From IMG/VR virus record IMGVR_UViG_3300030106_006475, positions 1 through 30,087 of that record: a stretch of 30,087 nt of DNA, one strand, 5' to 3'. The position numbers and the translations under genes are program-made. The notes under the pieces were generated by a model. It was not told where the DNA came from. It did no database searches and was given only the letters and a program-made list of their open reading frames with translations. This stretch comes from a virus. Below, one piece after another: positions 4,717 through 21,246 of the stretch; position 1 is the first letter of the stretch; each line of letters opens with the position of its first letter.

Positions 4717-4722
4717 TCTGAT

Positions 4723-4733
4723 TTAATTTACAC
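4723..4733 (-). promoter_or_regulatory. GTGTAAATTAA late-type element before fibre 2
   Basis: On the minus strand GTGTAAATTAA begins 17 nt upstream of the fibre 2 ATG. It also encodes the last codons and stop of fibre 1 (S-V-N-stop). The same 11-mer form (W = A/T at position 9) occurs before three other gene starts in the window. No Shine-Dalgarno is seen between it and the ATG. The promoter role is inferred. Confidence 0.45.
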
Positions 4734-7700
4734 TTTTTAATGGTTCAATCTCTAGTTTATCTATGTCTTTTCGTTCTCCATAGACCACATAGTCATAAAA
4801 CCCCTCTACTCCCCCAATCAATATAAGTTCGGGGGTTTTGGATTTTATATATAAATCTTGTTTTTTGCCGATTGGAGTAACCACTACAGTTATAGAGTCT
4901 TCATGAATCAACTCCGACCAGTATTCTGGTAGCTCTATAGACTTACTGCTTGTTGTTCCCCTGACGTATACCCCATTCTCTGGACCCTCCAAACAAGCAT
5001 ACTGAAGCTTTTTGTTTTCTTCGATTGGGTGATCAATAAGGAATGACTTACTGGTTGCAGAAAGATGCCCATTAACATCAAGAGCATTAGATGCATAGCT
5101 TGTTCCGATACCTACATTGCCTTCAATTATTGCCCCGTTAGATGGTGCAGAGCTTCCAGCAAAGCTAGATCCAATCGCTATGGCTCCTGCCACATCAAGC
5201 GTGTTAGAAACAGAGCTTGTTCCAATACCCACATTGCCTTCAATAATAGCTCCATTGCTTGGAGCAGCAGTTCCAGCATAACTGGAACCGATACCTACAC
5301 TTCCCGCTACATCTAATTTATTGGAAATAGAAGTTGTGCCTACACCTAAAGAGCCATCGCCCTTCAGAGTCATTAACTCTGTGGTATTATTTAATGTCCA
5401 ATGAGCCTTACTGTTTGTGGCATCGTATCCTATATTAGTTTGGACTTTTCCCCAATTGCTTGAGTTGCCATAAATCTTAATAAACCCATCATTTGTCAGT
5501 GTATCTGATCCTCCATAAAGACCTAAAAATGAATTTTCTACATTTTTAAATATATGATTAGCTACAGTTATAGCTCCACTAATATTAACCGCAGTAGTGG
5601 TTGTGCTACCATTATCACAAACGTCTTGGAGAGTTTGAGTCTCCGCAGGAGAATCACCAGAGAGTAAATAAGGAACCCCTTGATTAGTTATACGATTACC
5701 AGCACCTGTTCCTAAGAAGCTGCCAGAACCAGAGATGTCGCCAATAACTTGTAACTCTGCGGTTGGATTAGTTATGCCGATACCCACTCCATTTACCCCT
5801 CCACCAAAGTCGGCATCAACAATGGTCATTTTGGTGGCATCGTCTATATTAAATCTAATATAATTATTTCCTACAGTATTAAAACGGTTGTGAGCCATTT
5901 CCATGTAGTAAGAAGAATTATAAGAGTTTCTTATTCCGTAGGTGTCAGCGCCATTTGTTGATACATCAAGTTTTCTAACTGGAGATGTGCTTCCTATGCC
6001 GACATTACCAGCATCTTTTATCGTCATCCTAGCAGCCGCAGTTGCAGATGTTGTAACGTGGGTTGTTAAAAATGTTAAATCAGAAGAGCCGTCATTTAAT
6101 GAACTTCTTTCTCCTCTTACTATTGCATTAAAAGCATCTTTAGCTCCAGCACTAGCGGAAGTGCTAAATATTAACTCTCCTCCACCCCCGACACTATTAC
6201 TTCCATCTACATCTAAATAAAGTTGAGTAGTAGGTGATGACGACATAGTAGTCGCCAGTTCAAGTGTTGTTTCTGGATCAGTTGTTCCAATACCAACCTT
6301 GCCCTCTGTGATAATCATATCAACAGTGCCAGCCTCATCTACTCCGTTTCTGGCAAATGTTATACTATCGTTAGTTCCATTGTTATCTCCATCATAATTA
6401 ATATGCAGAGAACCAGAAACATTTATAGCAGAAGTATTAGAACCCAAGAAATCAATTTGTTGTCTTGAAGTTCCTCTATTAGTTATTTCAACTCCATCTG
6501 TTCCATCCCAGAATTTGGCGATACTATTAGTCCCATAGGCAACTGTTCCAACTTCAAATTTAGAAGTCGGGCTGCTTGTTCCAACACCAACTTTTCCGTA
6601 AGAGGGATTTAATAATAAAGTATAATTAGTGTTGCTACCAGTATGACGAGATTCAATGTAAGAGGCACTTGATGCTCTATCTACACCCATCTCTAATGCC
6701 ATCGCTCCATTTGCGCTGTCGGTGACAATCAAACCGCTTGGATTGGTCTGACCGCGATTCATAGGAGTATCTACAACAAGTCTTGTTATAGGTGCAGTTG
6801 TTCCAATCCCAACACTGCCATCACTCTGTATTCTAACTTTGTCAGATGCCGCGACTTGAAATTGCAAGTAATCAGAGTTACCAATTATTCTTGTGTTACT
6901 ACTATTCCAAGTTAAGTAATTATTATCTAATAATTTTATACCACCAGCGACATCAAGTTTTGCTGATGGAACATTACTGCCTATACCGACATCTCCATCG
7001 GTTGCGATACGCATGAACTCCGTTTCAGTAGTCCCATTATCTCCAGCGAATAAAAAGCCTCCGTTAGAAGAATTAGCTCTAGAGTAGAAATATAAATAAT
7101 CTCCACCTTTTTCTATTTCACTAAAAGTATTTGTTAAATCGGAATCTGTTAATCTTATAGTAGCTACTGATGCAGCTATCTCTAGTTCTGCATTAGGAGC
7201 CAGAGTGCCAATACCTACAGTGTTATTAGCACCTATAAACATTCTACCACCACCACCTGCACCAATACGGAATCCTTCATCGCCGTGCCTATACTGGATG
7301 AAACCCTCGTAAGACGAATTACCACCTGTTCCGTCAGCAAAATTTATACTCGCACTATGAGCAGGTCCAGAAAAGATTGTCAAGCCTTCTGCTCCTACTC
7401 CATCACCAACTACAAGCCTATTCGCTTCACTGTTAAAGTCTTCTGGGTTATTTAATCCTATACCTACTCTATCGCCAAACAATCCAGAGATTCCAGAGAT
7501 GTGCGGTCCAGTAGAAAGGATGGAGGTTGTTGTCGTATTACCATTATCACAAACGTCTTGGAGAGTTTGGGTCTCCGCAGGAGAATCACCTGAAAGGAGA
7601 TAGGGAACACCGTTATTTGTTATTCGATCACCCACACCTGTTCCTTTGACGCTGCCTGTTACTGTGAGGGATGATCCAGTTATATCTAGACTATTAAAAG

Positions 7701-10700
7701 TTGGTGAGTCACCAGAGGCGACACCTTGATTCATCGCGTCTGCGAAAACATTATCTGTAAACCTTCCATCAAGGTCTACCGTTACGGCGCTTAAACCCTC
7801 CCTGTTAAGAGTTAAAATTCCGTCAGAGGTATTAAAACTCGCAGAGGTTAAATAGTTATTTGTGTCAGTATCTGTAACATCTCCCGAAATGAGATAAACC
7901 TTACCATTTTCTGCGGTTATTCTATTTCCTATTCCCGTTCCGATAAAGTCGGCTCCTCCTGAAATACCTGCGGCTCCAGTTACAGTTAAACCATTGAATG
8001 TCGGAGAGTCGCCAGAAGCAACTCCCTGATTCATGGCATCAGCAAAAACGTTGTCAGTAAACCTTCCGTCTAGATCCACGGTCACGGTTGCCGCATCGTT
8101 TCTATTTAACGTTAATACTCCATCACTTGTCCCAAATGAAGCTCCCGTAATAAAAGTATTTGTATCAGTATCGGTGATGTCTCCAGAGACTAGATAGACT
8201 TTACCATTTTCTGCGGTTATCCTATTGCCTATCCCTGTTCCAATAAAATTAGCTCCCCCAGATATACCAGCCGACCCCGTAACAATTAATGCATTAAAAG
8301 TTGGAGAGTCTGTAGTAGCTACTCCTTGATCCATGGCATCGGCGTATACGTTGTCTGTAAATCTGCCATCGAGATCTACAGTAATTGCGCTTAAACCTTC
8401 TCTACCAAGCGTTAATATTCCATCTGAAGTATTAAATGATGCAGAATTGAGATAATTGTTAGTATCTGTGTCTGTAAAGCCTGTCAAAACAGGGACACCA
8501 CTTACATGTAATCCATCTCCAAAATATCCAATCGTAGGAACATAAACACCACTAGCATAATCTAAGGTTATAGTATGCCTCCCGCTTGAAGTATGGACTC
8601 TATCTTGACCATCTGCTAAAACAGCAGCGCCAATGTATCCTGATGGAATCTCTGCTTTGTTTCCTACCGCAAAACCATACCACCCACTAATTTTATTTGA
8701 ATTTCCACCCGCAATAGCAGATTGATCTCCTGAAATCTCATTACCAACTCCCCCCGCAATAACAGCCCCCTGTCCAGCATGGATTATATTTGTTCCACCT
8801 GCACCAATAAATGAAAAAGTAGAATAAACTTGGTTTTGTGTTCCTCCTGCAATAGCACTAGAGCTATAGTTACCACTTATAGTGTTCTCAAAACCTCCAC
8901 CAATAAAACTTTGGGTTGTAGTGTGAAGATCGTTTTGATATCCCCCCCCTATGACACCTCCTTGACCTTCTGTAATTTTATTTTGATATCCTCCCCCAAT
9001 AAGAGATTGGTCACTTTTTAGAATATCATTATTATATCCTCCAATACTTGAAGAATATTGACTTCCTGTAATATCAACACCTGATCCACCTCCAATAAAA
9101 TTAAAGTTTCCACCAGAAATATTACCTAACACTCCCCCTGCGATAACATCGAAGTCTCCGCTAACTACATGTCCAGATCCTCCAAGTATAGCTACACCTG
9201 TTGAATAGGCATTTGAATCAATAGCTCCTATTCTAGATTTTTCTTTTGTAGATATACCATATCCATCATTTGTCCCCAAAGTTGTGACACTCTTATCTCC
9301 GATAATAATTAGTTTTTGTTCACTTCCTGGGTCTGTGCCAATACCAACATTTCCAGCTAATTTAGCTTGTTGCGAAGAATCAATGGTTAGTGCTTCACTT
9401 GCTGCGGTTCTTAATTCGAAACTATCGTTGCCATTGAAACCAAAATAAGTATTAGTATCTCCGTAATGAGTGATGTAATCATTGAGAGATATTCCTCCAT
9501 TACTTATTTCAATCCCTTGATCAGTAGTATTTCCATTTTCCGTTACTTCTTGTAATGTATCTGCCGAACCTACTTGAGCATCTACATAACCTTTTGATGC
9601 AGCATCTGTTGAGGCTAAAGGGGTGGAGGGTATTGTTACTTGACTTGTAAATTTGCCAGCCCCTGCGACATCTAATGCGACTGTTGGGGCTGTTGTCCCT
9701 ATTCCTACATTTCCCTGCACCAACATGCCATCTGAAGGCGCTGTATTTTGCCCTCCGTAACTTGAGCCAATTGATACCGCTCCAAGCACATCTAACTTGT
9801 TAACTGGATCACTTCCTATCCCCACACCAGCAGCTTTAACAGAAGCTATTGCGGAGCCAGCAATATTAAAATTAATTTTTTTTGCGCTAGCCGCATTTAA
9901 ATGAGTTTCCCCAAGATGATCTTGTTTTAAGGCATAATTACTATATGTAAATTGATCTAGATGTCCAAAAGCTGCCGTGTCGGACTCGGACATGTGACCA
10001 ACTTTTGCCTTTCCAATGATTGCGCTTTCGTCCTCATCCTTTGCAACTTCTAATTTTTCAGTGGGAGTAGCACTAGAACCAATCGCTACAGAATTTGTGG
10101 TTGTATTCCCTTCATCAGTGACTCCTTGAAGGTTTTGACTTCCTCCTCCTGCTTCATCTCCAGAGAGCAGATAAGGTAAATCACTAGGACCAGTCAATCT
10201 ACCTCCATCTCCTACTCCAATAGCTCTCCCATTAACACTTAACTTAGCTCCCGCTTGAAGTGCTGTTGAAGTTCCTATCCCAACGTGTCCTTGGTGAGTT
10301 CTAATAGTGTAAGGGTAATCGTAATCAGGGGGTCCAACAGTTAAACAATTTCCCGTTATGTATCCCCCCATGCCATTCTCGCCCGACTTGAAAATAACGC
10401 TTCCTTCCATGAAACCGTTACCTTTATTGGGTATGAAATCCATGTTAGGAAGAGGAATTTCTTCCATTTTAAAAGGACCAACTGGCATCTCTATCGGAGT
10501 TAATCCTGCTGGATTATTGAAAAGCAGTTTAATGTGTTGGTCCTCATTAAGAGGAAAACCATTACCGTCTCTCAGAATAATTTGTTGGACCTTTTGTTGA
10601 GCTAACGGGAAAACTCCGATTAAACTTCCCTCATCTGTAGCGAATTGAGCGTTGTCGCCAGCCATTATCACCAACTCTCCAGCAGTTGTGTAGGTGGGAT

Positions 10701-11760
10701 CACTACCATGAATAGTAATTGCGATTTGCCCCGTAACGGTATCAGAACTTAAATACTGTTTATTGTGATATTGGACAGCTTCAGCGGCATCTCCCGTGTT
10801 TGGAATACTCCCTGTGTCGGGAGCGGGGGCATCTGATGTAGACTCATTTAACCAAATACCACTAGCATCTTGAATGTAAACTTTTTCGGGATACCATTGG
10901 TTAGAATTAATCTTGTAATCATTTCGAGAAACTTGGCCATCATAGTTAATAACCTCGTTTCTTACTATTAATTTATTGGTATCAGTGCCAAATAAGTCTC
11001 TTCTTTCTTGTCTAGTTAACGTAAATGAGGAGTCTATGTAATTTCTAAAATTACGAAAAACCATATTTCCATCAATATCAAGAATACTAATTCTTTGACC
11101 ACTGACAAACGGATCGTCTCTGATTTCTGCTGGTGTGCTAAGAGTGTTACCCATAGGGCTAACAATCTCAAATTCTAATGTTGCATCTGCGTTTAGAAAC
11201 ACTCCACTTCCAGTGTTGTGTAACGTCAAATCTCCTGTATCTACAGAAAATGATTGATCAAATTCCCAGATATCCCTCGTCGTGTAGGATGTTTCGTAAA
11301 AACCATAAGCCCCAGTGTCTCCTGCGGATATTCCTATACCGACTTTTCCTGTGTATTCTGACTGAGCAACAGATGCTTTTTTATAAATAGCGTATAAAGC
11401 TCCACTATAAAGAGTATCTCTAGCAAGAGTGTAGGGGTCAGATCCCCCCGCTCCGACACCGACAAAACCAGTTCCTTCTCCTCTTACATCTCCAATAGGA
11501 GTGGCTCCACCAATGATTACACCCGTGGAAGCATATAAATCAAAAAATGAGGTGCTTATTTGATAAGGAACTGTAGTTCCAGCGCCAACAACATTAATAA
11601 AAGAAACAGTATCCCATCCCGAAGTGACTGCTAGAGAGTTCAAATAACCAGCCGCTCCCGTTGCTCCAGTAGCTTGATCGTATGCTCCTGACGCATACAT
11701 AAAAGCACCATCATCACTGGTGATTTTTAGTATCTGGTATTGGTTATCGTTGTAGGACAT
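4723..11760 (-). CDS. Giant tail fibre 1 with VGIGTT modules, YadA-like roll and C-terminal capping domain
   Basis: This 2345-aa structural protein starts directly at the J stop (TAA then ATG, no spacer). Layout: an N-terminal region (about 1-230) that probably docks on the tail; many GVGIGTxxPxxxLDVxG modules; a Gly/Ser-rich stretch of short IGGGxxNxI repeats (about 855-1040) resembling the YadA-type left-handed beta-roll; three tandem 100-residue repeats (about 1097-1396); more VGIGTT modules; and a conserved C-terminal domain (about 2235-2345). The latter carries SFLIDHP, CLEGPENGVYVRG, ELPEYW, VTPIG and VYGERKD, a block I recognise from C-termini of other phage fibres, where it likely caps or folds the trimer. 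A classical S74 endosialidase-chaperone site was not recognised. The expected role is a trimeric receptor-binding fibre. Confidence 0.88.
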   Translation of the reverse strand: MSYNDNQYQILKITSDDGAFMYASGAYDQATGATGAAGYLNSLAVTSGWDTVSFINVVGAGTTVPYQISTSFFDLYASTGVIIGGATPIGDVRGEGTGFVGVGAGGSDPYTLARDTLYSGALYAIYKKASVAQSEYTGKVGIGISAGDTGAYGFYETSYTTRDIWEFDQSFSVDTGDLTLHNTGSGVFLNADATLEFEIVSPMGNTLSTPAEIRDDPFVSGQRISILDIDGNMVFRNFRNYIDSSFTLTRQERRDLFGTDTNKLIVRNEVINYDGQVSRNDYKINSNQWYPEKVYIQDASGIWLNESTSDAPAPDTGSIPNTGDAAEAVQYHNKQYLSSDTVTGQIAITIHGSDPTYTTAGELVIMAGDNAQFATDEGSLIGVFPLAQQKVQQIILRDGNGFPLNEDQHIKLLFNNPAGLTPIEMPVGPFKMEEIPLPNMDFIPNKGNGFMEGSVIFKSGENGMGGYITGNCLTVGPPDYDYPYTIRTHQGHVGIGTSTALQAGAKLSVNGRAIGVGDGGRLTGPSDLPYLLSGDEAGGGSQNLQGVTDEGNTTTNSVAIGSSATPTEKLEVAKDEDESAIIGKAKVGHMSESDTAAFGHLDQFTYSNYALKQDHLGETHLNAASAKKINFNIAGSAIASVKAAGVGIGSDPVNKLDVLGAVSIGSSYGGQNTAPSDGMLVQGNVGIGTTAPTVALDVAGAGKFTSQVTIPSTPLASTDAASKGYVDAQVGSADTLQEVTENGNTTDQGIEISNGGISLNDYITHYGDTNTYFGFNGNDSFELRTAASEALTIDSSQQAKLAGNVGIGTDPGSEQKLIIIGDKSVTTLGTNDGYGISTKEKSRIGAIDSNAYSTGVAILGGSGHVVSGDFDVIAGGVLGNISGGNFNFIGGGSGVDITGSQYSSSIGGYNNDILKSDQSLIGGGYQNKITEGQGGVIGGGYQNDLHTTTQSFIGGGFENTISGNYSSSAIAGGTQNQVYSTFSFIGAGGTNIIHAGQGAVIAGGVGNEISGDQSAIAGGNSNKISGWYGFAVGNKAEIPSGYIGAAVLADGQDRVHTSSGRHTITLDYASGVYVPTIGYFGDGLHVSGVPVLTGFTDTDTNNYLNSASFNTSDGILTLGREGLSAITVDLDGRFTDNVYADAMDQGVATTDSPTFNALIVTGSAGISGGANFIGTGIGNRITAENGKVYLVSGDITDTDTNTFITGASFGTSDGVLTLNRNDAATVTVDLDGRFTDNVFADAMNQGVASGDSPTFNGLTVTGAAGISGGADFIGTGIGNRITAENGKVYLISGDVTDTDTNNYLTSASFNTSDGILTLNREGLSAVTVDLDGRFTDNVFADAMNQGVASGDSPTFNSLDITGSSLTVTGSVKGTGVGDRITNNGVPYLLSGDSPAETQTLQDVCDNGNTTTTSILSTGPHISGISGLFGDRVGIGLNNPEDFNSEANRLVVGDGVGAEGLTIFSGPAHSASINFADGTGGNSSYEGFIQYRHGDEGFRIGAGGGGRMFIGANNTVGIGTLAPNAELEIAASVATIRLTDSDLTNTFSEIEKGGDYLYFYSRANSSNGGFLFAGDNGTTETEFMRIATDGDVGIGSNVPSAKLDVAGGIKLLDNNYLTWNSSNTRIIGNSDYLQFQVAASDKVRIQSDGSVGIGTTAPITRLVVDTPMNRGQTNPSGLIVTDSANGAMALEMGVDRASSASYIESRHTGSNTNYTLLLNPSYGKVGVGTSSPTSKFEVGTVAYGTNSIAKFWDGTDGVEITNRGTSRQQIDFLGSNTSAINVSGSLHINYDGDNNGTNDSITFARNGVDEAGTVDMIITEGKVGIGTTDPETTLELATTMSSSPTTQLYLDVDGSNSVGGGGELIFSTSASAGAKDAFNAIVRGERSSLNDGSSDLTFLTTHVTTSATAAARMTIKDAGNVGIGSTSPVRKLDVSTNGADTYGIRNSYNSSYYMEMAHNRFNTVGNNYIRFNIDDATKMTIVDADFGGGVNGVGIGITNPTAELQVIGDISGSGSFLGTGAGNRITNQGVPYLLSGDSPAETQTLQDVCDNGSTTTTAVNISGAITVANHIFKNVENSFLGLYGGSDTLTNDGFIKIYGNSSNWGKVQTNIGYDATNSKAHWTLNNTTELMTLKGDGSLGVGTTSISNKLDVAGSVGIGSSYAGTAAPSNGAIIEGNVGIGTSSVSNTLDVAGAIAIGSSFAGSSAPSNGAIIEGNVGIGTSYASNALDVNGHLSATSKSFLIDHPIEENKKLQYACLEGPENGVYVRGTTSSKSIELPEYWSELIHEDSITVVVTPIGKKQDLYIKSKTPELILIGGVEGFYDYVVYGERKDIDKLEIEPLKSVN
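5607..5658 (-). repeat. 52-bp repeat copy A inside fibre 1
   Basis: This segment, encoding a TQTLQDVCDNG-type linker, matches 7539-7590 over 52 bp with one mismatch by eye. The flanking repeat units have drifted much more at the DNA level, which suggests recent duplication or gene conversion. Confidence 0.8.
7539..7590 (-). repeat. 52-bp repeat copy B inside fibre 1
   Basis: This is the partner of the copy at 5607-5658, about 1.9 kb away in the same gene and in the same frame. It is a possible recombination site that would remove or add the intervening fibre modules. Confidence 0.8.
7573..8472 (-). repeat. Three tandem 300-bp (100-residue) repeats in fibre 1
   Basis: Units begin at 8472, 8172 and 7872, each with DTDTN, at an exact 300-bp period. 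Each unit then carries TVDLDGRFTDNV, ADAM(D/N)QGVA and DSPTFN; the first two end GIGNRITAENGKVYL(V/I)SGD, and the third changes over to a GVGDRITNNGVPYLLSGD ending. Protein identity is high but the DNA has many silent changes, so the array is old and kept by selection. Confidence 0.85.
8640..9195 (-). repeat. Short IGGGxxNxI repeats (YadA-head-like beta-roll) in fibre 1
   Basis: About twelve degenerate repeats of 14-18 residues follow the pattern (I/A)(G/A)GGxxNxIxxxxSx. They match the left-handed parallel beta-roll of trimeric autotransporter heads, and the run ends in an AVGNKAEIPSG-type segment as in YadA-like heads. This is a family-level reading by eye. Confidence 0.6.
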
Positions 11761-14700
11761 TTATAAAATGGTTATTTGGTCTAAGAATGATTTATTAAAA
11801 ACGAGTAACTGGTCATATACTACGAAAATTCCTGTGGAAGAAGTAACTGAATCAAAATAAGCATTTGTATTAGCTATTCCCCCATTGTTTCCAAGTGCAT
11901 TTACACTAAGATTAAAGACACCAACTTGACCCAAGCCTGAAAATTCTATTCCTGTTGCGGTTGTAGATTCCTCTTGCTCAATGGCCCCGTTAGGATAAGT
12001 AAGACTCGCTTTATATCCCGTGCTATTATCAACAGCTTCCCACATACCACTTATAGAAAAAGTTTGAGTGGCTAGATCTGGTATTCCAGTTGTAATAGAA
12101 GCTAGAGTTGGGGCTGGTAAAGTTTCATAGGTAATCCCGTTTATTGTTTGTGCGACTTGATAACTCAAAGTATCCGACTCATTCTCAATACTGATATTTT
12201 TTTCAATTAAATTAAATTTACCTGTGTTATATTTTGTAGCAGTAACCAAATATTCATTTGGTTCCTGTTCTTTCATGGAGATAACCTTATAAATAAAGGG
12301 ACTTGCATTTTTTATCTCAAATTTAGCTGGGCTTCCTAATTTAACAAAAGGCAGAACCTCAGGCTTATCGAAACCCGAAACTAAAGATCCATATGTTTTA
12401 TTTACAACAGAGCCCGTGACCGATAAAACGGTTATCTGTTCAGGCGAAACTCCTGAAATCTCATTATTCATTACTCCCCTGTAAGGACCAACAAAGCTTT
12501 CGTAATCAAAACCAGAAAAAGCGGCCAAGGTGCTACCTCTCCTATCATCTTGAGTTCCATCAAAATTTGCTATTTGACCTGTTCCAAACGAAGTGAGTGT
12601 TTGATCGCCTGTGTAGGGAGAAATAAAGTCCCCTGAATCAAGACTTCTCGCGTCTCCAGATGAAAAGATCCACCCAGTTACACCTGTTTCAAAGTAAATC
12701 TCAGTTACCCTTTCTGTTCCTCCAAGACCTGTAGTTAAACCAGTATACAGTCCATATTCTTCAAACCTTTCTTCGCCATTATCTGCCGCTCCTATTGTGG
12801 CATCACTATATCCTACAGTGTAACCAGAAAAACCATAATATCCTGTATACTCAACCCACGAATCCGCTGGTGCTCCTGTTATAGTGAATGATTGAAAGCG
12901 CTCTCTATTTACATCAGCAAGGTCATCTATTTCATTCAGAGTATCCCTCCCCGTAGGATAGTAAACAGTTAACCTGCCCGTATTCATCGAGCTATCAAAT
13001 TTATTAGTTAGGCGAATCGTTTCGGCTTCTAAATCTACTCCTAGAATCTTTCCAAAGTTTGCTTTATTTGTTTTTAACTCATCTTCAATAATAACTAAAT
13101 CTCCAGGCTGACATAATAAACTCTCAACCCCTGCCGTGAATGCAACCGTTTGGTTTTCTGAAATAGAAGAATATATTAAATGTTGCCCCATCCTTCTAGC
13201 CATAGCCCTAGAAGTAATACCTACACCCTCTATTTTTTTCTTGAAAACACCTCTTTCTTTAATGTCATTTTCATCCTCAATACACTCTATCTTGGGCGCG
13301 TAATTATCAAACCTGTCTTTAAAACCTACTTCAATAGTATTATATTGTTCATCTCTCCTATTATTAGAATAGAAAAATAAACCTTCTTTTACGGATTCAT
13401 TTGTAAATAAATTGACTGGTTTTCTAGGTCTATCATCAACAAAATTTATCTCTGAATTACCAAAGAAAACTCTTCCCCTAAAAATTTGAGCGATTGTATT
13501 AATAGCATCGTAAATTTTTTCACCTCTATCAAAAACAACATTGCAAGAAAATCTTGGTTCTCTTCCACCTCGACCATCAGTTACTCCTTCAAAATAACCT
13601 TCATCGTCTACAGCGTCACAAAACCTTCCTATTTTATATAATTGCCACTTATTAATTGTATTGATATCAATGTGACTACCCATTCCATATCTTTCGTTAG
13701 TAAGTAGATCATATAAGATCCATGCTGGGTTGTCTGTCCACACTAACTCATCTCGGAAAGTTCCATCCCAATCACCTTCATAAATTAATAATTTATTTTT
13801 AATTGATTCGTCAGAGCTATTTTTAAATGTATTATATTGTTCAATAGTTTTATGATATCTATAATCTATCCCATCACGGGTAGGAAAATAATTACTAGGA
13901 ACTTTTACTAACTTTAGCTTGCAATCAAAGCTGCGCTTGGGAATTGCTCCAAAAGCCCTAGAATCAAGCCTAGTTCCGATAATTGCGGAAAAAGGATAAG
14001 GTAAATCTGCTTCAATTATTTCTGTTACTTTTTGCAGACCTATGTCTTTAGAGAGAAGAACGGAATTAGTTTCAAAAGAAAGTTTAGTTACCCTTACAAA
14101 ACGTTCTTCTACACTGTCTTGGTCAATTGTTCCCGCCTCAATTCCCCTTTCACCATCAGGACTTAATATATCATTATTTTTAATATTAACTTTTGGTAGT
14201 CTAAAGGGAACATTTAACTTTTGTTGCCTAGCATCTCCTGCTTGTAGATTTATAACATATTGTTTGTCTATATCTTCATGAGCAGCGTTATCAGGATTAC
14301 CTATATCAATTAAGGTTTCTCCTTCAACTAAAGCTACGATGCGATAAATATATGTCCTTACGTCACTTTCGTATCCCGTTTTACCAACCCTGCCCGTTTC
14401 AACCTTGAAGTTTACAACTGTTGGGAACTTAGTTCCGACCTTAAAGTCGTAACTACTGTTTCCTGATACATTGTTTACCTCAGTAACCAACGTATCCATT
14501 AACGTTGAAACATTTAGAGTAATAAATACTGCCGTAACATTTGGATTATAAACAGTATGGACAACTGGTATAGCTTGTTCGTCCCACTTAGCTAAAGAGT
14601 TATTAGCCCACGCAGAATAGTCCCTTGTCGTTCCTCCTGCATCTTGCCTCTCGTCATCACTGCCCTCATTTAGTGGCAAACGATCACTTCCTAGTTCTAA

Positions 14701-16374
14701 ATTATAATTAGTAGCATCGTAGTCAACCACCTTGCTCTTAGTGAGCATATCGACATTGGGATTTATTCTCTGGGGGGCTACTTTATCTTTAGCCCCAAAT
14801 GGCCCAAAAAGAGGGGAGGCATATATATGGTCTATATATACTCTTCTAAAATAACGAAATGGAGTTTGTGTTTCTTCGCCTTTTTTTACCTCCGCTAAAA
14901 CATTTGCATAGTTATATTTTAAATTACTGGTTTCAAATTCATTTTGCTGAACAACCTCTTCATTTTGTAATTCTTTTGAATACTTTAAATCTTCTATATC
15001 TTTAAGCGCGTCCTTTACTGCTTTAGGGATGGCAACGGTATAAGTTCCAAACGTTTTTCTTTTAGAACTGCACTTTTGATAGGTCTTTTTATATACAGGT
15101 GTAAATTGAAAAGCCAAGAAACCATATAGTTTTCCAGTCATAATTCCATCAGCATCTACTTCTGGACAAGTGACATCAGCTATTCTTATACCAGCATTTT
15201 TCATCGTCCTTTCCAGATTCCATCCGTAATTTTGCCCATACGGGTAGGTTCTCATATTGGCGACCGCGCCATCTTCCACTACAGTTTTACCTGCTAAATT
15301 AGGGTTATCTCTTTCAACCATAATGATAGCATGAGCTTTTCTACTGTTACTTTTTTCCAACCAATTATGGAAAAGACCGTTTCCAGCAGCCCCAGTTCCT
15401 GGGTTCATTTGAGACCCATTCCAGTTCAGCGCACTCAAAGCTTTTGCCGCAAGAGTTTGCTGAAATAGATTATTATCGGGATTTAAATCATTATTATTAT
15501 CGTTCCAAAGATTCATTAGGTTTTGAATCTCGCTCTGAACTAATTGCTCAGATCTGTCAGAGGTTTTCTTAAAGTTTTGTCTGCTAAAAAAACCTCCCCC
15601 TGATCTATGTCCGAAACCAAAGAAAAACTTTGCCGTGGATAAGTGATTGGTATCCAACCAAAACATTCTAAAAAGCCTACTCCAAGATTTATTTCCATTT
15701 CTATAAACGGCATTATTTTGACTAGTCCCGACATCAGAGCGAGGACTAGTGTTATCATTCATAAAGAAATAAAATCTTTTATCAGATGAGCCATAATATT
15801 TCATATAAGCTCTCATATAAATAGCGTAGAAAGATTTAGATCTTGGGACACTACTACTGCACCCACTTTTCTTCCTCCATCTTAAAACCCACATCGAAAC
15901 ATTGGGTAGAAAACCATACTCCCCACTGCTTTTCGGACCTCTAGTTCCATTTTTCTTCAATAAGGTAACATAACCCCCTTCACTGCGAAGTTTTTGTTGA
16001 TTAACGGCTTGAAAAAATTTCCTAAAATTTCTAACACCATTACCTTTTGTTAGGGTTGCAGTTTTAATTTCTAAAGTTCTTGTCGCTGAAGAAGGAAGAG
16101 TGTTAGAGCTTCTCTTTAACTCACTCGAAACTGCGACAGGAGTATCATCGAGGTAAATTCCTTGTAATAAATTAGCTCCATCTACAATTTCTCCATAGCG
16201 ATTACAGAGACCCTCAATAGGTCCATCACTAATTAAATCTAAAGTTTCAGAATAGCTATAGGAAGCTCCATACTGAAGCTCCCCCATTACAGGGGGTTTA
16301 TAGATGGGGGGCTTTGGTTTTTTATTTTTTCCTCCCGCACCACCAATAGCGATTTTTTTTAGTATATGGCTCAT
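11761..16374 (-). CDS. J: Tail-tip host-specificity protein, lambda J-like
   Basis: This 1537-aa protein sits at the tail tip and contacts the host receptor in lambda-type phages. The N-terminus shows a KPKPPIYKPP segment, then LDLISDGPIEGL and IYLDDTPV, as in J. The conserved core is clear: DWDGTF, TNERYGMGSHIDINTINKW near residue 896, EPRFSCNVVFDRGEKIYDAI, FGNSEINFVDDRP, and SENQTVAFTAGVESLLCQPGD. The C-terminus (about 1420-1500) has a fibronectin-III-like stretch (GYKASLTYPNG, FSGLGQVGVFNLSV). It is about 400 residues longer than lambda J, mostly from a large extra region between about 90 and 700. ATG lies 3 nt after the I-like stop, and fibre 1 starts immediately after its own stop, as in a single late transcript. 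Confidence 0.93.
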   Translation of the reverse strand: MSHILKKIAIGGAGGKNKKPKPPIYKPPVMGELQYGASYSYSETLDLISDGPIEGLCNRYGEIVDGANLLQGIYLDDTPVAVSSELKRSSNTLPSSATRTLEIKTATLTKGNGVRNFRKFFQAVNQQKLRSEGGYVTLLKKNGTRGPKSSGEYGFLPNVSMWVLRWRKKSGCSSSVPRSKSFYAIYMRAYMKYYGSSDKRFYFFMNDNTSPRSDVGTSQNNAVYRNGNKSWSRLFRMFWLDTNHLSTAKFFFGFGHRSGGGFFSRQNFKKTSDRSEQLVQSEIQNLMNLWNDNNNDLNPDNNLFQQTLAAKALSALNWNGSQMNPGTGAAGNGLFHNWLEKSNSRKAHAIIMVERDNPNLAGKTVVEDGAVANMRTYPYGQNYGWNLERTMKNAGIRIADVTCPEVDADGIMTGKLYGFLAFQFTPVYKKTYQKCSSKRKTFGTYTVAIPKAVKDALKDIEDLKYSKELQNEEVVQQNEFETSNLKYNYANVLAEVKKGEETQTPFRYFRRVYIDHIYASPLFGPFGAKDKVAPQRINPNVDMLTKSKVVDYDATNYNLELGSDRLPLNEGSDDERQDAGGTTRDYSAWANNSLAKWDEQAIPVVHTVYNPNVTAVFITLNVSTLMDTLVTEVNNVSGNSSYDFKVGTKFPTVVNFKVETGRVGKTGYESDVRTYIYRIVALVEGETLIDIGNPDNAAHEDIDKQYVINLQAGDARQQKLNVPFRLPKVNIKNNDILSPDGERGIEAGTIDQDSVEERFVRVTKLSFETNSVLLSKDIGLQKVTEIIEADLPYPFSAIIGTRLDSRAFGAIPKRSFDCKLKLVKVPSNYFPTRDGIDYRYHKTIEQYNTFKNSSDESIKNKLLIYEGDWDGTFRDELVWTDNPAWILYDLLTNERYGMGSHIDINTINKWQLYKIGRFCDAVDDEGYFEGVTDGRGGREPRFSCNVVFDRGEKIYDAINTIAQIFRGRVFFGNSEINFVDDRPRKPVNLFTNESVKEGLFFYSNNRRDEQYNTIEVGFKDRFDNYAPKIECIEDENDIKERGVFKKKIEGVGITSRAMARRMGQHLIYSSISENQTVAFTAGVESLLCQPGDLVIIEDELKTNKANFGKILGVDLEAETIRLTNKFDSSMNTGRLTVYYPTGRDTLNEIDDLADVNRERFQSFTITGAPADSWVEYTGYYGFSGYTVGYSDATIGAADNGEERFEEYGLYTGLTTGLGGTERVTEIYFETGVTGWIFSSGDARSLDSGDFISPYTGDQTLTSFGTGQIANFDGTQDDRRGSTLAAFSGFDYESFVGPYRGVMNNEISGVSPEQITVLSVTGSVVNKTYGSLVSGFDKPEVLPFVKLGSPAKFEIKNASPFIYKVISMKEQEPNEYLVTATKYNTGKFNLIEKNISIENESDTLSYQVAQTINGITYETLPAPTLASITTGIPDLATQTFSISGMWEAVDNSTGYKASLTYPNGAIEQEESTTATGIEFSGLGQVGVFNLSVNALGNNGGIANTNAYFDSVTSSTGIFVVYDQLLVFNKSFLDQITIL

Positions 16375-16377
16375 TGG

Positions 16378-17037
16378 TTAATTTTTATCCCCCACTACTT
16401 TATTAGTTCTAAAGGTGGAGTTGGAGTTCTCTCCGACCTTAACTGGTGTTATCGAACCATCTCGGTTAGTTACGCCCACATTCCTTAAAGCATTTTTTGT
16501 TTTAACTCCCTGAGGAAAAGATTTAATTGTTGCTTGCACAACTTGAGAGCCAACTATCAATCTACCATACCCTACAGGTAAAGGAGCGCCTTGACTGGCT
16601 ACATTTGCCGTATTGCTAAAAATTAAAGATTCCTTACTCCCATCTGCGGTGATCTCCAATGCTTCTACTTCGGGTTTAGGAGTAAGCGCATAAGAAATCG
16701 CTGCAAATAATACTGCTTTAGCAACTGTAGCGAGGAATCCCCCCCCTGTAAAAAGTCCTATGATTGGTGCAAGAAAACCACTACCAACGATGGCTGGGAC
16801 TAAATCAATAGTCTGTGGCTCTTCATGGTTAGCCATTTCCTGAGGGGTGTTTATAACAGTTTTATCAACTATTATTTGATAGAGAAAACCTTCCTTTTGT
16901 AATTCTATTAATCTGGAGATAAAACCTCGTTTATTACAGTCTAAAGCATCTAAAACATTACGAGGATTACCGACGGAAAGAGCAAAGGTGTCTCCAAATT
17001 CTTTAGCTAAAATTCCATGTAATTTTACTTGTGTCAT
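16378..17037 (-). CDS. I: Tail assembly protein, lambda I-like
   Basis: This 219-aa protein helps build the tail tip together with J, K and L. The N-terminal half (VKLHGILAKEFGDTFALSV) has the ubiquitin-like look of TAPI-family proteins. The middle has a Gly/Ala-rich hydrophobic segment (about 82-118). The C-terminal half carries the family signature NTANVASQGAPLPVGYGR with a following VGSQVV. Its ATG overlaps the stop of the upstream JAMM gene (ATGA), and the J start follows 3 nt after its own stop. Length and position match lambda I. Confidence 0.85.
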   Translation of the reverse strand: MTQVKLHGILAKEFGDTFALSVGNPRNVLDALDCNKRGFISRLIELQKEGFLYQIIVDKTVINTPQEMANHEEPQTIDLVPAIVGSGFLAPIIGLFTGGGFLATVAKAVLFAAISYALTPKPEVEALEITADGSKESLIFSNTANVASQGAPLPVGYGRLIVGSQVVQATIKSFPQGVKTKNALRNVGVTNRDGSITPVKVGENSNSTFRTNKVVGDKN

Positions 17038-17453
17038 ATAGAACCCTTAATCCTTTCTAGTATATTTACATTCGCTTCTACATTTTTGGGCTGATAAATA
17101 TTTATTTTTTTAGTATTTAAACTATAGATCAAAAATGGTTGGCAACAATTGTCTGCCATTTTTATGTCAAACTCCGAAGGCTCTTCATCTCCCATTATGT
17201 GACTATGGAAAATTGCGACCATTTCGTAGTTTTCTTTAAATAAAAGATAATTTAAAGGATTAATTAAAAAGTAAGATGCTGGATCAGGCGATACGTTTTC
17301 TTCATGCTGAAGAACAAATTTCATTTGGTCAGTATCAAACCCAATAAAACCACAAATTTCTCTTTTAAAATGTTTATGAGAAACTTGTTTTATATTACTA
17401 ATGAGAGACTCAACGCCTTTAATATGAAGTGTTTCTGCCATAGCTAAATCCAT
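17034..17453 (-). CDS. K: JAMM/MPN metallopeptidase, tail protein K-like without NlpC/P60 domain
   Basis: This is a JAB1/MPN+ protein of 139 aa. From the ATG at 17453 the zinc-site residues are E32, H83, H85, S93 and D96 in the pattern HSH-x7-SxxD, which is complete. Lambda K has this domain plus a C-terminal NlpC/P60 cell-wall hydrolase; here the protein stops after the JAMM domain. I chose 17453 because AGGA lies 4 nt upstream. An in-frame TTG at 17474 would add 7 residues, and ATG at 17438 would remove 5. It overlaps the 3' end of the L-like gene by 35 nt and the I start by 4 nt. Confidence 0.85.
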   Translation of the reverse strand: MDLAMAETLHIKGVESLISNIKQVSHKHFKREICGFIGFDTDQMKFVLQHEENVSPDPASYFLINPLNYLLFKENYEMVAIFHSHIMGDEEPSEFDIKMADNCCQPFLIYSLNTKKINIYQPKNVEANVNILERIKGSI

Positions 17454-19551
17454 CTGTTCCTGGGAATCCTCCAAAACGGGGATTATTTGGTGTTGGGTTT
17501 GGAATACTTGTTAGTTCTCCCTCGCTGTAATTTTCTTGAACTGCTTCAAATTCTCCACTTCCAGTTAAATGGTAGGGTCCAGCAGTATGTATATCCATCA
17601 TTCCAAGAGTGCTCCCTCCATCTACAATACCAGTAGTTCCATCCCACCATGCCACAAGACTATCTTGCCCCCATGTTAATGGAGCGCTTCCTTCAGGTAA
17701 ACCATCTCCAGTTCCCCCTGTTAACGTGCTTAATTGACCAGTGCATTCGTTATATTCAAGGGGGACAAATTCAAGCTGTGCGTCTACATCATTCGGTCTG
17801 ATAACTCTTCTTCTTAAAGCGTTCATTTCATTTTCCTGTAATGCTCTATTCCAAACAGCCCAAGTTCCAAGTTGACCATTCATGGAAGATGTATATTTAG
17901 GATCTCCATCCTCATAACCCCTAGTCTGATATGATAATTCTACAGCACCCAGCATAAAGGTTTGAGGAAGTGCTCCTGTTCCACCATCCCATGTCATTCC
18001 AGTTCTTTCGCTATAACTCGCAAAATTACCTAAGTTATTGATAAACCTTCCATCGTCATGCACATTTCTGGCTACCATCTCTCCATCTACCATGAAGTTT
18101 ATAATAGTATCTTGTTCATTTCCTTGTCCATTAACAAAGGTAGCTGTTCCTGTTGTATGTGTGATGATGTAACAATGCCATTCAGCAACGTTATCATCAC
18201 TTGCGTTTAATTCCTCTAGGTTATGTAAATAAGGTATTCTGTAAGCGTTTGAATTACGATTGCTAGTTGTTTTGTTAATTAAATAACCCATATGATAGGC
18301 TTCTACTCTAGTCTGAGCACTTCCGTCCCTAGTTCTACCAATATTAAGATATCTACATGCTGGCCAAGATCCATCGTCTCTCTGCGAGGTGCTGAAAACC
18401 CCTGCGCCTATCGCTGAGTTTTCATTAACATTAACCCAACCTAATATAGTCCACTCTCCAGTTGGTTGGATAGCACCAGTAATTGCAGTAGAGTGAGTAT
18501 GAAAAAGACCTGTGTGATCAGGAACATAAGCGTTTGTATTGCTCCTTGTTCCAGAAAGCATGACGGTATCAAAAGTTTTGGTCTCCACTTCACCCCCAAC
18601 AAAATCTGCTGTGTCCTGCTTACCAAATCTTTTATTACATGCGTTAAGTTTTTTGGTGCATCCGTCTTTAACCCAATAACTTGGGTTTTGTTCAGGATGT
18701 TGATTTAGATTACTGTCTTTTATAGAAACATAAACAGTTTTAAGTGGAACGCCCGCTTCATTTGTGTTGTAGCTTACATCTTGTATTGGAGGAATTGTTA
18801 TGCTTGGGCTTTCTATCCAGACTACTCCACTTTTTGCATATGTTCTTGTAGCGTCCCATTTTGCTGATGGGTCAAAGAAAAAATCTACAGGTGAGTTTTC
18901 TATTTTTTCGTAATTAGGAATAACAGCGTTACCGTCAGCGTCTAAAAAAGGCGACCCATCATCTTTCTCAATTGGTAAACCATTATAACGGCATCCCTGC
19001 CCTCTGTATTGCCAATAACAAAATTTAGAGACGACTCCCCGAGAATTAATACTAAAATTCTCTAGATCTAGAGGTGAATTCAACTCAAACTCAGCAAATA
19101 TTTTAGATTCTTGGGTTTTTCTACCCATTATCCAAGTTTCATTAATTAATTCTGCTTGAGGATCGGCTACTCCAAAAGGATTTCCTCCTTCAAAGTTTAC
19201 ATCATCAATAAATTTTACTTGGACTTTTTTCCTAATTACCTTTGCATGAATTAGGTCTTTGTAGTTTTGCAGAAAGTTTGTAATTAAATTATTTTGATTT
19301 GCTATTCTAATTTTGGGTCTAGGTAATTTCCCATCTCCAAGAACATCAAAACCCTCGCTTTCAATGGCTAACGGCAGGTATTGAACACCCTGCCATGTAA
19401 CTGATTTATCATAAATAGAACCTCCATGAAACCCTAAAAACAAAGACGGTTTGTTAATTCTATCAGGGTAAATTTGAAACAATTCTAGTATTGCTGTTGG
19501 TTGCATGTCAACCAAGCTACTAGCTACTTTATTTTGTCCTTCTGCCGCCAT
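17419..19551 (-). CDS. L: Minor tail protein L-like with inserted carbohydrate-binding-like and LamG-like domains
   Basis: This 710-aa protein is about three times the length of lambda L. Residues 1-190 follow L (VTWQGVQYLP, SEGFDVLGDG, RPKIRIANQ, VKFIDDVNF). Four cysteines, C178-x8-C187 and C298-x6-C305, keep the spacing of the lambda L iron-sulphur ligands. Between C187 and C298 lies an insertion ending in YVSIKDSN...SYWVKDG, like CBM5/12-type chitin-binding modules. After C305-NKRFG comes a 260-residue concanavalin/LamG-like sandwich (about 328-590), then a linker. The usual L ending (NNPRFGGFPG) appears only at residue 692 onward, so LamG is inserted inside the L fold rather than appended. 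It is the first gene of the leftward tail operon, with a GTGTAAATTAA element 14 nt before the ATG. Confidence 0.85.
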   Translation of the reverse strand: MAAEGQNKVASSLVDMQPTAILELFQIYPDRINKPSLFLGFHGGSIYDKSVTWQGVQYLPLAIESEGFDVLGDGKLPRPKIRIANQNNLITNFLQNYKDLIHAKVIRKKVQVKFIDDVNFEGGNPFGVADPQAELINETWIMGRKTQESKIFAEFELNSPLDLENFSINSRGVVSKFCYWQYRGQGCRYNGLPIEKDDGSPFLDADGNAVIPNYEKIENSPVDFFFDPSAKWDATRTYAKSGVVWIESPSITIPPIQDVSYNTNEAGVPLKTVYVSIKDSNLNQHPEQNPSYWVKDGCTKKLNACNKRFGKQDTADFVGGEVETKTFDTVMLSGTRSNTNAYVPDHTGLFHTHSTAITGAIQPTGEWTILGWVNVNENSAIGAGVFSTSQRDDGSWPACRYLNIGRTRDGSAQTRVEAYHMGYLINKTTSNRNSNAYRIPYLHNLEELNASDDNVAEWHCYIITHTTGTATFVNGQGNEQDTIINFMVDGEMVARNVHDDGRFINNLGNFASYSERTGMTWDGGTGALPQTFMLGAVELSYQTRGYEDGDPKYTSSMNGQLGTWAVWNRALQENEMNALRRRVIRPNDVDAQLEFVPLEYNECTGQLSTLTGGTGDGLPEGSAPLTWGQDSLVAWWDGTTGIVDGGSTLGMMDIHTAGPYHLTGSGEFEAVQENYSEGELTSIPNPTPNNPRFGGFPGTDGFSYGRNTSY

Positions 19552-19554
19552 ATT

Positions 19555-19565
19555 TTAATTTACAC
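19555..19565 (-). promoter_or_regulatory. GTGTAAATTAA late-type element before the L operon
   Basis: The minus-strand GTGTAAATTAA begins 14 nt before the L ATG, with no Shine-Dalgarno between. It is the same 11-mer as before fibre 2. Its complement supplies the TTTACA -35-like box of the divergent rightward promoter, so the two directions share bases. Confidence 0.5.
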
Positions 19566-19587
19566 TTTTATTATTATATCATATAAT
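19559..19587 (+). promoter_or_regulatory. Sigma70-like promoter for the rightward genes
   Basis: TTTACA (19559-19564), a 17-nt spacer, then a perfect TATAAT (19582-19587). The inferred transcription start lies within a base or two of the GTG start codon at 19594, so the mRNA may be leaderless. Confidence 0.55.
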
Positions 19588-19589
19588 AA
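19571..19589. promoter_or_regulatory. Perfect 19-bp palindrome in the divergent promoter region
   Basis: TTATTATAT, a central C, then ATATAATAA: nine-base arms with no mismatch. It places TATAAT on both strands, so it could serve as a two-way -10 region, a repressor site, or both. It lies centrally between the L operon and the rightward genes. Confidence 0.6.
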
Positions 19590-19593
19590 AGAT

Positions 19594-20307
19594 GTGAAAA
19601 TTACACAGTTAAAACCAGATGATCATAGGCTTTGGCCCCAATTTTTGGAGTTTTTCATCAAATCCCAACCTTACAACTTAACGAATTTTCATTCGCCAAG
19701 TTTAAAAAGAAAAAAAATAGAGCAGATGTTTAAGTTTTATATGGAAACTTGCGTTGTTTATTTAGCGGAGGAGGATTCTAAAACAATGGTGGGGGTATTC
19801 CTTGGAGAACACGCATCTTATTTTGATGTTAATTTTGTGTTTGGAATAAGAAAAGACTTCACAAGCGAGAAACTAATAAATGCGACTCATAGGATATTTG
19901 ATGTCGCCCTTGATAAATATAATAAAAATTATTTAAAAAGCGAAATAAGAAGAGAACATAAAGTTAGAGCTTACAAAAAATGGATTGAAAGATACGATAA
20001 ACGAGCCATAATATTTAATGACCCACCAAATACAGTGGTTTGGTGTAAAAGTGACAACATGAAAGCTCAATTCAAAGTAGTAGGAGTCAATCTAGTTACA
20101 GAACACTTAATGGGACAGACTGCTTCGTTAAGTAAAAAGTTCGCAGGATCAATGAGAGAATTGACCTTTGGCGAGAAAAAATATTTTTTTGATGAAAAAA
20201 GCGTTGACTTTTTGGCTCAGTGTGTTGTAGTCAATGGACTTCTGTCCGATGACAAAGAAAACGTTGGAAGAGTAGCACTTGAATTCATACCACAAAATGA
20301 AAAGTAA
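19594..20307 (+). CDS. Unknown protein, possible GNAT-like acetyltransferase fold
   Basis: This 237-aa protein is read from GTG at 19594; the only upstream in-frame starts lie inside the L gene. The first half has the layout of a GNAT protein: an N-terminal ITQLKPDDHRLWPQFLEFF segment, beta strands around VVYLAEEDSKTMVGVFLGE, a DVNFVFG strand, and a basic helix near RREHKVRAYKKWIER where GNATs often end. I do not see a clear acetyl-CoA P-loop (QxxGxG/A), so this is weak. The second half (about 150-237) matches nothing I know. It is the first gene of the rightward unit and is divergent from the tail operon; the next gene overlaps its end by 11 nt. Confidence 0.7.
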   Translation: MKITQLKPDDHRLWPQFLEFFIKSQPYNLTNFHSPSLKRKKIEQMFKFYMETCVVYLAEEDSKTMVGVFLGEHASYFDVNFVFGIRKDFTSEKLINATHRIFDVALDKYNKNYLKSEIRREHKVRAYKKWIERYDKRAIIFNDPPNTVVWCKSDNMKAQFKVVGVNLVTEHLMGQTASLSKKFAGSMRELTFGEKKYFFDEKSVDFLAQCVVVNGLLSDDKENVGRVALEFIPQNEK

Positions 20308-20497
20308 ACCTGTTTTATATAGAGTATATACCCGCAAAGGAGAGTATCACCATGCTTATAATGCATCTTTAGAAGGCTCCCTACTTTGGGCTATTGATTG
20401 TGCTAAGACAGTCAGTGGCTCTGTTAAAGAGGTCTTCGAAGATAAGACCGAGAAAGAAGTTTTTAATTGCATCAAAAACAAAAAATGTTCTCTTTAA
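20297..20497 (+). CDS. Small unknown protein
   Basis: This 66-aa protein starts at ATG 20297 (MKSKPVLYRVYTRKGEYHHA), overlapping the upstream gene by 11 nt. It is basic at both ends, with no membrane segment and two cysteines near the C-terminus. I do not recognise it. It is translationally linked between the divergent first gene and the spanin pair. Confidence 0.6.
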   Translation: MKSKPVLYRVYTRKGEYHHAYNASLEGSLLWAIDCAKTVSGSVKEVFEDKTEKEVFNCIKNKKCSL

Positions 20498-20748
20498 TTA
20501 AATCTGTTTTAAAATCAGTCGAGCTTTTCTTAAGCTTGAAAAATAAAAAATTTTATTATGACTTATACATCGAACACCGAGAAAGAGAAGATGAACTCGT
20601 ATGGCAAATTGAAGAACTTAGGGAGAGCGGTAACAGCAATGATGCTGATCGGGCTGACCTCCTGCGCCAGCGACTCAATTATGAGCGTCAACAATTTGAA
20701 CATCTATCAACCTTCTACTCTAAGGCTGGAGAAGAGTCAACCGATTAA
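20485..20748 (+). CDS. Possible i-spanin (Rz-like), coiled-coil protein
   Basis: This 87-aa protein is read from ATG 20485. The first 22 residues form a hydrophobic but lysine-punctuated helix (MFSLIKSVLKSVELFLSL), weaker than a normal membrane anchor. The rest is a charged helix with coiled-coil character (REREDELVWQIEEL, RADLLRQRLNYERQQFEHL). The call rests on architecture: a lipoprotein gene begins inside it in the +1 frame, as with Rz/Rz1. Inner-membrane spanins normally have a clear N-terminal TM segment, so the function is inferred. It overlaps the preceding gene by 13 nt. Confidence 0.55.
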   Translation: MFSLIKSVLKSVELFLSLKNKKFYYDLYIEHREREDELVWQIEELRESGNSNDADRADLLRQRLNYERQQFEHLSTFYSKAGEESTD

Positions 20749-20842
20749 AACAAAAGATGGTATCTACACCCCGCAGACTGACGAGGTGTGGCACTCAGAC
20801 GCTCGTTATCGTAGACTTGAAAGAGAAATTTACTCTAAATGA
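20591..20842 (+). CDS. Outer-membrane lipoprotein, probable o-spanin (Rz1-like)
   Basis: This 83-aa lipoprotein starts at ATG 20591, preceded by GAGAAAGAGAAG, a purine-rich ribosome site. The signal peptide has a basic n-region (KLKNLGR), a hydrophobic core (AVTAMMLIGL) and the lipobox LTSC with C25 as the lipidated residue. It overlaps the upstream coiled-coil gene by 158 nt in another frame and runs 94 nt past it. O-spanins join the i-spanin to fuse inner and outer membranes in the last step of lysis of Gram-negative hosts. The mature part is not very proline-rich, unlike lambda Rz1. The deaminase gene starts at its stop (ATGA). An ATG at 20558 would add 11 residues but spoils the signal peptide. 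Confidence 0.7.
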   Translation: MNSYGKLKNLGRAVTAMMLIGLTSCASDSIMSVNNLNIYQPSTLRLEKSQPIKTKDGIYTPQTDEVWHSDARYRRLEREIYSK

Positions 20843-21246
20843 GGACTCCTTGGGAGAAATACGCATTAGATTTAGCTAAAACCGCATCTCAACGTAGTGA
20901 AGACCCCCATATGAAAGTGGGGGCTTGTGCTTTAAATAAGCATAATATGGTTTTAGCCTTGGGTTATAATGGTTTAGCGCCAAGAAAACAAGTTGATGAT
21001 TCTTTTTGGGAAGACAGAAATGGTCGTAGACCTTACATGATTCATGCTGAAGCTAACTGTTTGAGTCTTGTAAAAAGGGGAGAAGTAAAACTTTTAGCTG
21101 TAACTCTTTTGCCATGTTCCTCTTGCGCCACGTTGATAGCATCCTACGACATTCCGAAGGTTGTCTATGGGGAGATATATGAACGAGACATGAAGTCTCT
21201 GGAGATTTTTGACTTTTATGACATAGAATGTGTAAAATTGAGTTGA
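20839..21246 (+). CDS. Deoxycytidylate (dCMP/cytidine-type) deaminase
   Basis: This 135-aa zinc deaminase converts dCMP to dUMP (or a related cytidine substrate), feeding thymidylate supply for phage DNA synthesis. Zinc and catalytic residues are complete: H69-A-E71 (the HAEANCL motif) and C93-x2-C96 (LPCSSCA). GYNGLAPR near residue 42 fits the dCMP deaminase subgroup. At 135 aa it is shorter than T4 dCMP deaminase and shows no obvious allosteric dCTP-binding extension. Its start overlaps the lipoprotein stop (ATGA). The promoter of the next unit begins within its last codons. Confidence 0.9.
   Translation: MRTPWEKYALDLAKTASQRSEDPHMKVGACALNKHNMVLALGYNGLAPRKQVDDSFWEDRNGRRPYMIHAEANCLSLVKRGEVKLLAVTLLPCSSCATLIASYDIPKVVYGEIYERDMKSLEIFDFYDIECVKLS

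Follow-up and report, generated by a model that had tools for sequence, protein, structure and literature searches.

Two loop insertions, one of them a predicted LamG/pentraxin-type sandwich, in a lambda gpL-type tail-tip protein

Gene L of phage lambda encodes a tail-tip protein of 232 aa, whereas the window, i.e., the whole 30,087-base virus record analyzed here, encodes a homologue of 710 aa at positions 17419-19551 on the minus strand. This raises the question of what the additional residues represent, where they are accommodated in the gpL fold, and whether they may take part in host recognition. The initial annotation had given the same coordinates and protein length, leaving out the strand, and had described an L protein with two glycan-binding-like domains inserted in its loops.

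That the product is an L protein was borne out by profile, sequence, and fold matches. It matched the Pfam family Phage_tail_L (PF05100) with 145.1 bits (cut-off 25, E 2.4e-42), a family also matched by 49 out of 49 relatives, as well as PHROG 18 (E 2.2e-53) and lambda gpL in the PDB (8iyk, E 2.6e-25). In the full-length structure model, the N-terminal part reached a pLDDT of about 28 owing to a shallow alignment, and it was replaced by a second model, which covered residues 1-320 and was based on 89 sequences (mean pLDDT 82). Comparison of the latter using the program VIA-align placed residues 18-166 on lambda gpL (8iyk_L) with Z 16.1 and an rmsd of 2.2 over 143 residues; further fold matches were obtained for T1 (Z 12.3), the RcGTA hub (10.4), and JBD30 (10.4). 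The matches span residues 10-166 only and, hence, describe the HDI (attachment) domain (residues 1-166; 19054..19551, minus strand) and not the first insert. At the other end of the chain, the C-terminal clip (residues 686-710, NNPRFGGFPGTDGF...; 17422..17496, minus strand) matches the lambda-type L ending, its NNPRFGGFPG motif starting at residue 689. Three long related contigs each carry one L per record and, therefore, the window-type copy must do the assembly job. As judged from these gene inventories, the 710-aa protein is the sole gpL identified in the phage.

Between these two parts lie the iron–sulfur cysteines. In lambda gpL, the Fe–S ligands Cys173, 182, 205, and 212 were seen by cryo-EM (PMC10721106), and the window protein keeps their spacing, with C178-x8-C187 corresponding to Cys173/182 and C298-x6-C305 to Cys205/212, as the initial annotation had noted. 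The four cysteines were found to be invariant in 89 aligned L proteins and the x8 ... x6 ligand set was kept in all 82 of 82 distinct complete relatives, which argues that the spacing is not due to chance. Accordingly, the iron–sulfur domain can be divided into a first half (residues 178-195, C178 and C187; 18967..19020, minus strand) and a second half (residues 291-312, C298 and C305, the latter opening the motif CNKRFG; 18616..18681, minus strand). By analogy to lambda, the four cysteines would bind a [4Fe-4S] cluster exposed on the outside of the tip. Further cysteines are present at positions 399, 460, and 603; C603, part of an ECTG motif within the LamG-type segment, represents a fifth cysteine that is invariant in 49 aligned relatives.

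Sorting the relatives by two gaps, namely the one between the cysteine pairs and the one from the last cysteine to FGG, revealed a natural series. Plain L proteins feature gaps of 22 and about 10 residues. L241, L243, and L244 carry the first insert only (99-100 and 10), the clip following directly after the last ligand in L241 and L244, and L274 (145 and 10) likewise lacks the second insert. In L242, L270, and L272 (88-91 and 45), the first insert is accompanied by a 45-residue spacer, and the window type, comprising 82 distinct complete proteins, shows gaps of about 90-119 and 360-420. The longest form, L276 (1108 aa; 3986-7309), has gaps of about 100 and 780 and contains many cysteines, and no Pfam family match was obtained for its added domains. 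Since shorter natural forms lack the two segments, these are real insertions with known sites: both occupy loop positions of gpL, as had been proposed, and are found throughout the window-type family. In the scans performed, the LamG-type segment occurred within L only, at 249 loci, many of them overlapping; each of these either is in frame with the L core or clip or is truncated where its contig stops. On inspection, the 22 out of 249 rows labelled 'other' proved to be L proteins in which the ending reads YGGFPG or GGYPG or the cysteine motif varies, or else truncated contigs. The insert-1-only L241 is encoded on a contig (JABXKB010000040.1) assigned to a Lokiarchaeota MAG; this contig is probably of phage origin and misbinned.

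The first insert (residues 196-290; 18682..18966, minus strand) extends the gap between the cysteine pairs to 110 residues, compared with 22 in lambda-type L proteins and 88-145 in relatives, and it was modelled with pLDDT values mostly between 66 and 97 (model of residues 1-320). Its consensus, conserved in 12 diverse members, features W, Y..G..V, T.YV, and P..NP..W elements and weakly recalls CBM5/12. The corresponding profile (PF02839) weakly matched two of the 12 members (best E 0.029) and did not match the window protein, so that of the 'carbohydrate-binding-like' segment proposed between the pairs, the segment itself stands, while its CBM5/12 label is weak. A profile search of the PDB with the first insert yielded nothing significant, the matches being at chance level; the chitin deacetylase region 4nz1, obtained at E 1.2, would agree with CBM5/12 without being evidence for it. 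The position of the insert is precedented. In the hubs of RcGTA (6tba, residues 168-249) and roseophage R4C (residues 162-243), a domain called oligosaccharide-binding lies at the same place between the two halves of the Fe–S domain, and a gap of this kind is also found in JBD30 gp50 (8rk3; Cys147, 156, 238, and 245). Sequence similarity between the first insert and the R4C hub domain was not found using hhalign, where the alignment was confined to the Cys motif (probability 0.5%).

The second insert (residues 313-685; 17497..18615, minus strand) separates the last ligand from the terminal FGGFPG by about 385 residues, compared with about 10 in lambda. In the full-length model, this region appears as a single sandwich with block mean pLDDT values mostly between 75 and 94. 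VIA-align matched residues 325-681, the folded core, to the LamG-like domain of PAPP-A (Z 17.5, 218 residues, rmsd 3.9), to pentraxins (Z 12-14), and to laminin G domains (about 11); according to the model, the insert is one LamG/pentraxin-type beta-sandwich. A separate sandwich between the last ligand and the normal ending is thus present as predicted, although considerably larger than the 260 residues originally assumed. The assignment is based on the fold because the sequence signal is very weak: Pfam Laminin_G_3 (PF13385) was matched by seven out of 49 relatives (best E 0.0014) and did not match the window protein. The long strands 314-333 and 668-684 may form a two-stranded stalk in the model. 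A circular permutation of the LamG domain, considered because the motif LVAWWDG resembles a LamG start, was set aside, as the PAPP-A alignment spans 325-681 as one listed range.

To what extent this arrangement is new was evaluated by database comparisons. The LamG segment gave no significant match in 50,697 annotated phage records (one at E 6) and no match in plasmids, and a first scan of the genome collection using the full alignment found nothing. Among the 60 best L matches listed, similarity ended at or before residue 244, and a literature search combining gpL with laminin G returned nothing. The first insertion has positional precedents in RcGTA, R4C, and JBD30, while the annotated phage records searched gave no match for the LamG insertion at the second site. 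In BFVD, marine virus proteins often show LamG-like folds, suggesting a source of the second insert; going by IMG sample numbers, many contigs of the relatives presumably originate from marine samples.

The genes following L are arranged as in lambda, the tail-tip operon having the order L-K-I-J with L first. The K counterpart (146 aa; 17034..17474, minus strand) overlaps the end of L and consists of a JAB domain only (PF14464 Prok-JAB, E 5e-9); the NlpC/P60 half that some other K proteins have is absent. It is followed by the I counterpart (16378..17037, minus strand; PHROG 32 tail assembly protein, E 1.5e-27) and the counterpart of J, the hub and central fibre (11761..16374, minus strand; Pfam Phage-tail_3, E 2.7e-17; PHROG 31 central tail fiber J, E 1.6e-96). 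After J, two very large fibre-like frames of over 1572 and 2345 aa (1-4716 and 4723-11760, respectively, minus strand) have the PHROG profiles 9942 and 18345 (tail fibre) in common; the two frames are likely to be the main adhesins.

Taken together, we consider it reasonably probable that the gpL of this phage is a hub protein closing the tail together with gpJ and carrying two surface modules that add envelope contacts. The HDI domain would stack on the distal-tail ring and the clip would pack into the hub. The chain would leave the surface iron domain, form the sandwich, and return to the buried clip, a path that would put the sandwich outside. The two modules, in three copies each, would then point outward close above the cell surface, where they could add contacts to envelope polysaccharide or glycoprotein and assist J and the fibres as separate adhesins. 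The inserted domains probably let the tail tip grip the host surface, with glycan or envelope binding as their putative function. Many LamG domains bind proteins or only act as a scaffold, and a shared LamG fold is no proof of sugar binding.

A rather unlikely alternative is that the inserts are structural decoration, bracing the tip or packing on the giant fibres or gpJ without binding a host molecule. Jelly-roll domains often serve as scaffold, and the two very large fibre-like frames beside J could be the adhesins. However, no other part of the protein changes as fast as the inserts, while conservation would be expected of surfaces that pack. Among 76 members, the mean pairwise identity was 0.79 for the HDI domain, 0.81 and 0.73 for the iron halves, and 0.82 for the clip, compared with 0.52 for the first insert and 0.48 for the LamG segment; in the same members, indels amounted to 9-12% in the inserts (LamG 12%) and at most 1.5% elsewhere. 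This pattern fits, at the level of sequence, a scaffold that would be held constant while its recognition modules diversify, and the faster divergence of the inserts can also be read as relaxed constraint. Distances for HDI and LamG correlate with each other (r 0.77), so that wholesale module swapping within the family is not evident.

An enzyme-like or depolymerising function of the second insert, instead of a binding one, appears very improbable. ConA-like sandwiches do include glycoside hydrolases and lyases, and the alginate lyase PyAly was found far down the Foldseek list, but the best fold matches were LamG and pentraxin domains, which are non-catalytic, and hydrolase or lyase families gave no sequence match. 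As to an assembly or frame artefact fusing L to another gene, its probability is close to nil, given 82 distinct complete proteins from many contigs with the same single-frame architecture. Extending the favoured reading of gpL as a hub protein with surface modules, it is conceivable, if doubtful, that in uncultured phages host-recognition domains are taken up at the loop after the last Fe–S ligand, whose length is 10, 45, about 385, or 780 residues. Binding at this landing site would be relayed to the hub via the iron–sulfur domain and clip and would contribute to tail-tip opening, with the cluster serving a receptor sensor as its mechanical or redox anchor.

Compared with known systems, the window protein shares with lambda gpL (8iyk) the HDI fold, the four cysteines with x8/x6 spacing, the FGGF ending, and the L-K-I-J gene order. 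Lambda gpL has no inserts, whereas in the window protein the distance between the pairs has increased from 22 to 110 residues and that after the last Cys from about 10 to about 387. The hubs of RcGTA, R4C, and JBD30 likewise have an inserted domain splitting the iron-binding domain and a clip at the end, but none of them has been described to carry anything like the LamG insert that here separates the clip from the last ligand. That sandwich fold is common to PAPP-A, pentraxin, and LamG domains (PF13385; Z 11-17.5), with a very weak sequence signal. A further comparison is offered by the evolved Dits of lactococcal and streptococcal phages, in which carbohydrate-binding modules inserted in loops of the Dit bind hosts (PMC7291167). 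In both cases, a core tail assembly protein carries modules in its loops, but evolved Dits use the Dit ring for this and their binding has been measured, whereas in the window protein L carries modules whose binding is presumed. By this analogy, the window protein could be termed an 'evolved L', in an extension of the 'evolved Dit' concept to the gpL hub. Both underlying ideas are known in phages, and it is the LamG domain between last ligand and clip that found no counterpart among the annotated phage records. Furthermore, the natural series shows domain addition without disturbing the iron–sulfur site and marks, in an essential assembly protein, an insertion point tolerating hundreds of residues.

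A candidate host-recognition module is thereby added for a phage group without a close cultured relative as judged by its terminase, for which matches covered about half the protein with identities of about 29% or less. The phage is most likely a long-tailed siphophage, because a tape measure protein is present and a sheath family match was absent in the longest relatives; its genome would comprise roughly 90-105 kb if the contigs of the relatives are complete. In two longer relatives (G001 and G003), the tape measure gene lies >40 kb from L on the other strand, meaning that the tail-tip operon is detached from it. In the window, the start of L forms a divergent junction (19551-20842), beyond which the genes run the opposite way, among them a dCMP deaminase-like gene (20839-21246, plus strand; PHROG 174, E 1e-31).
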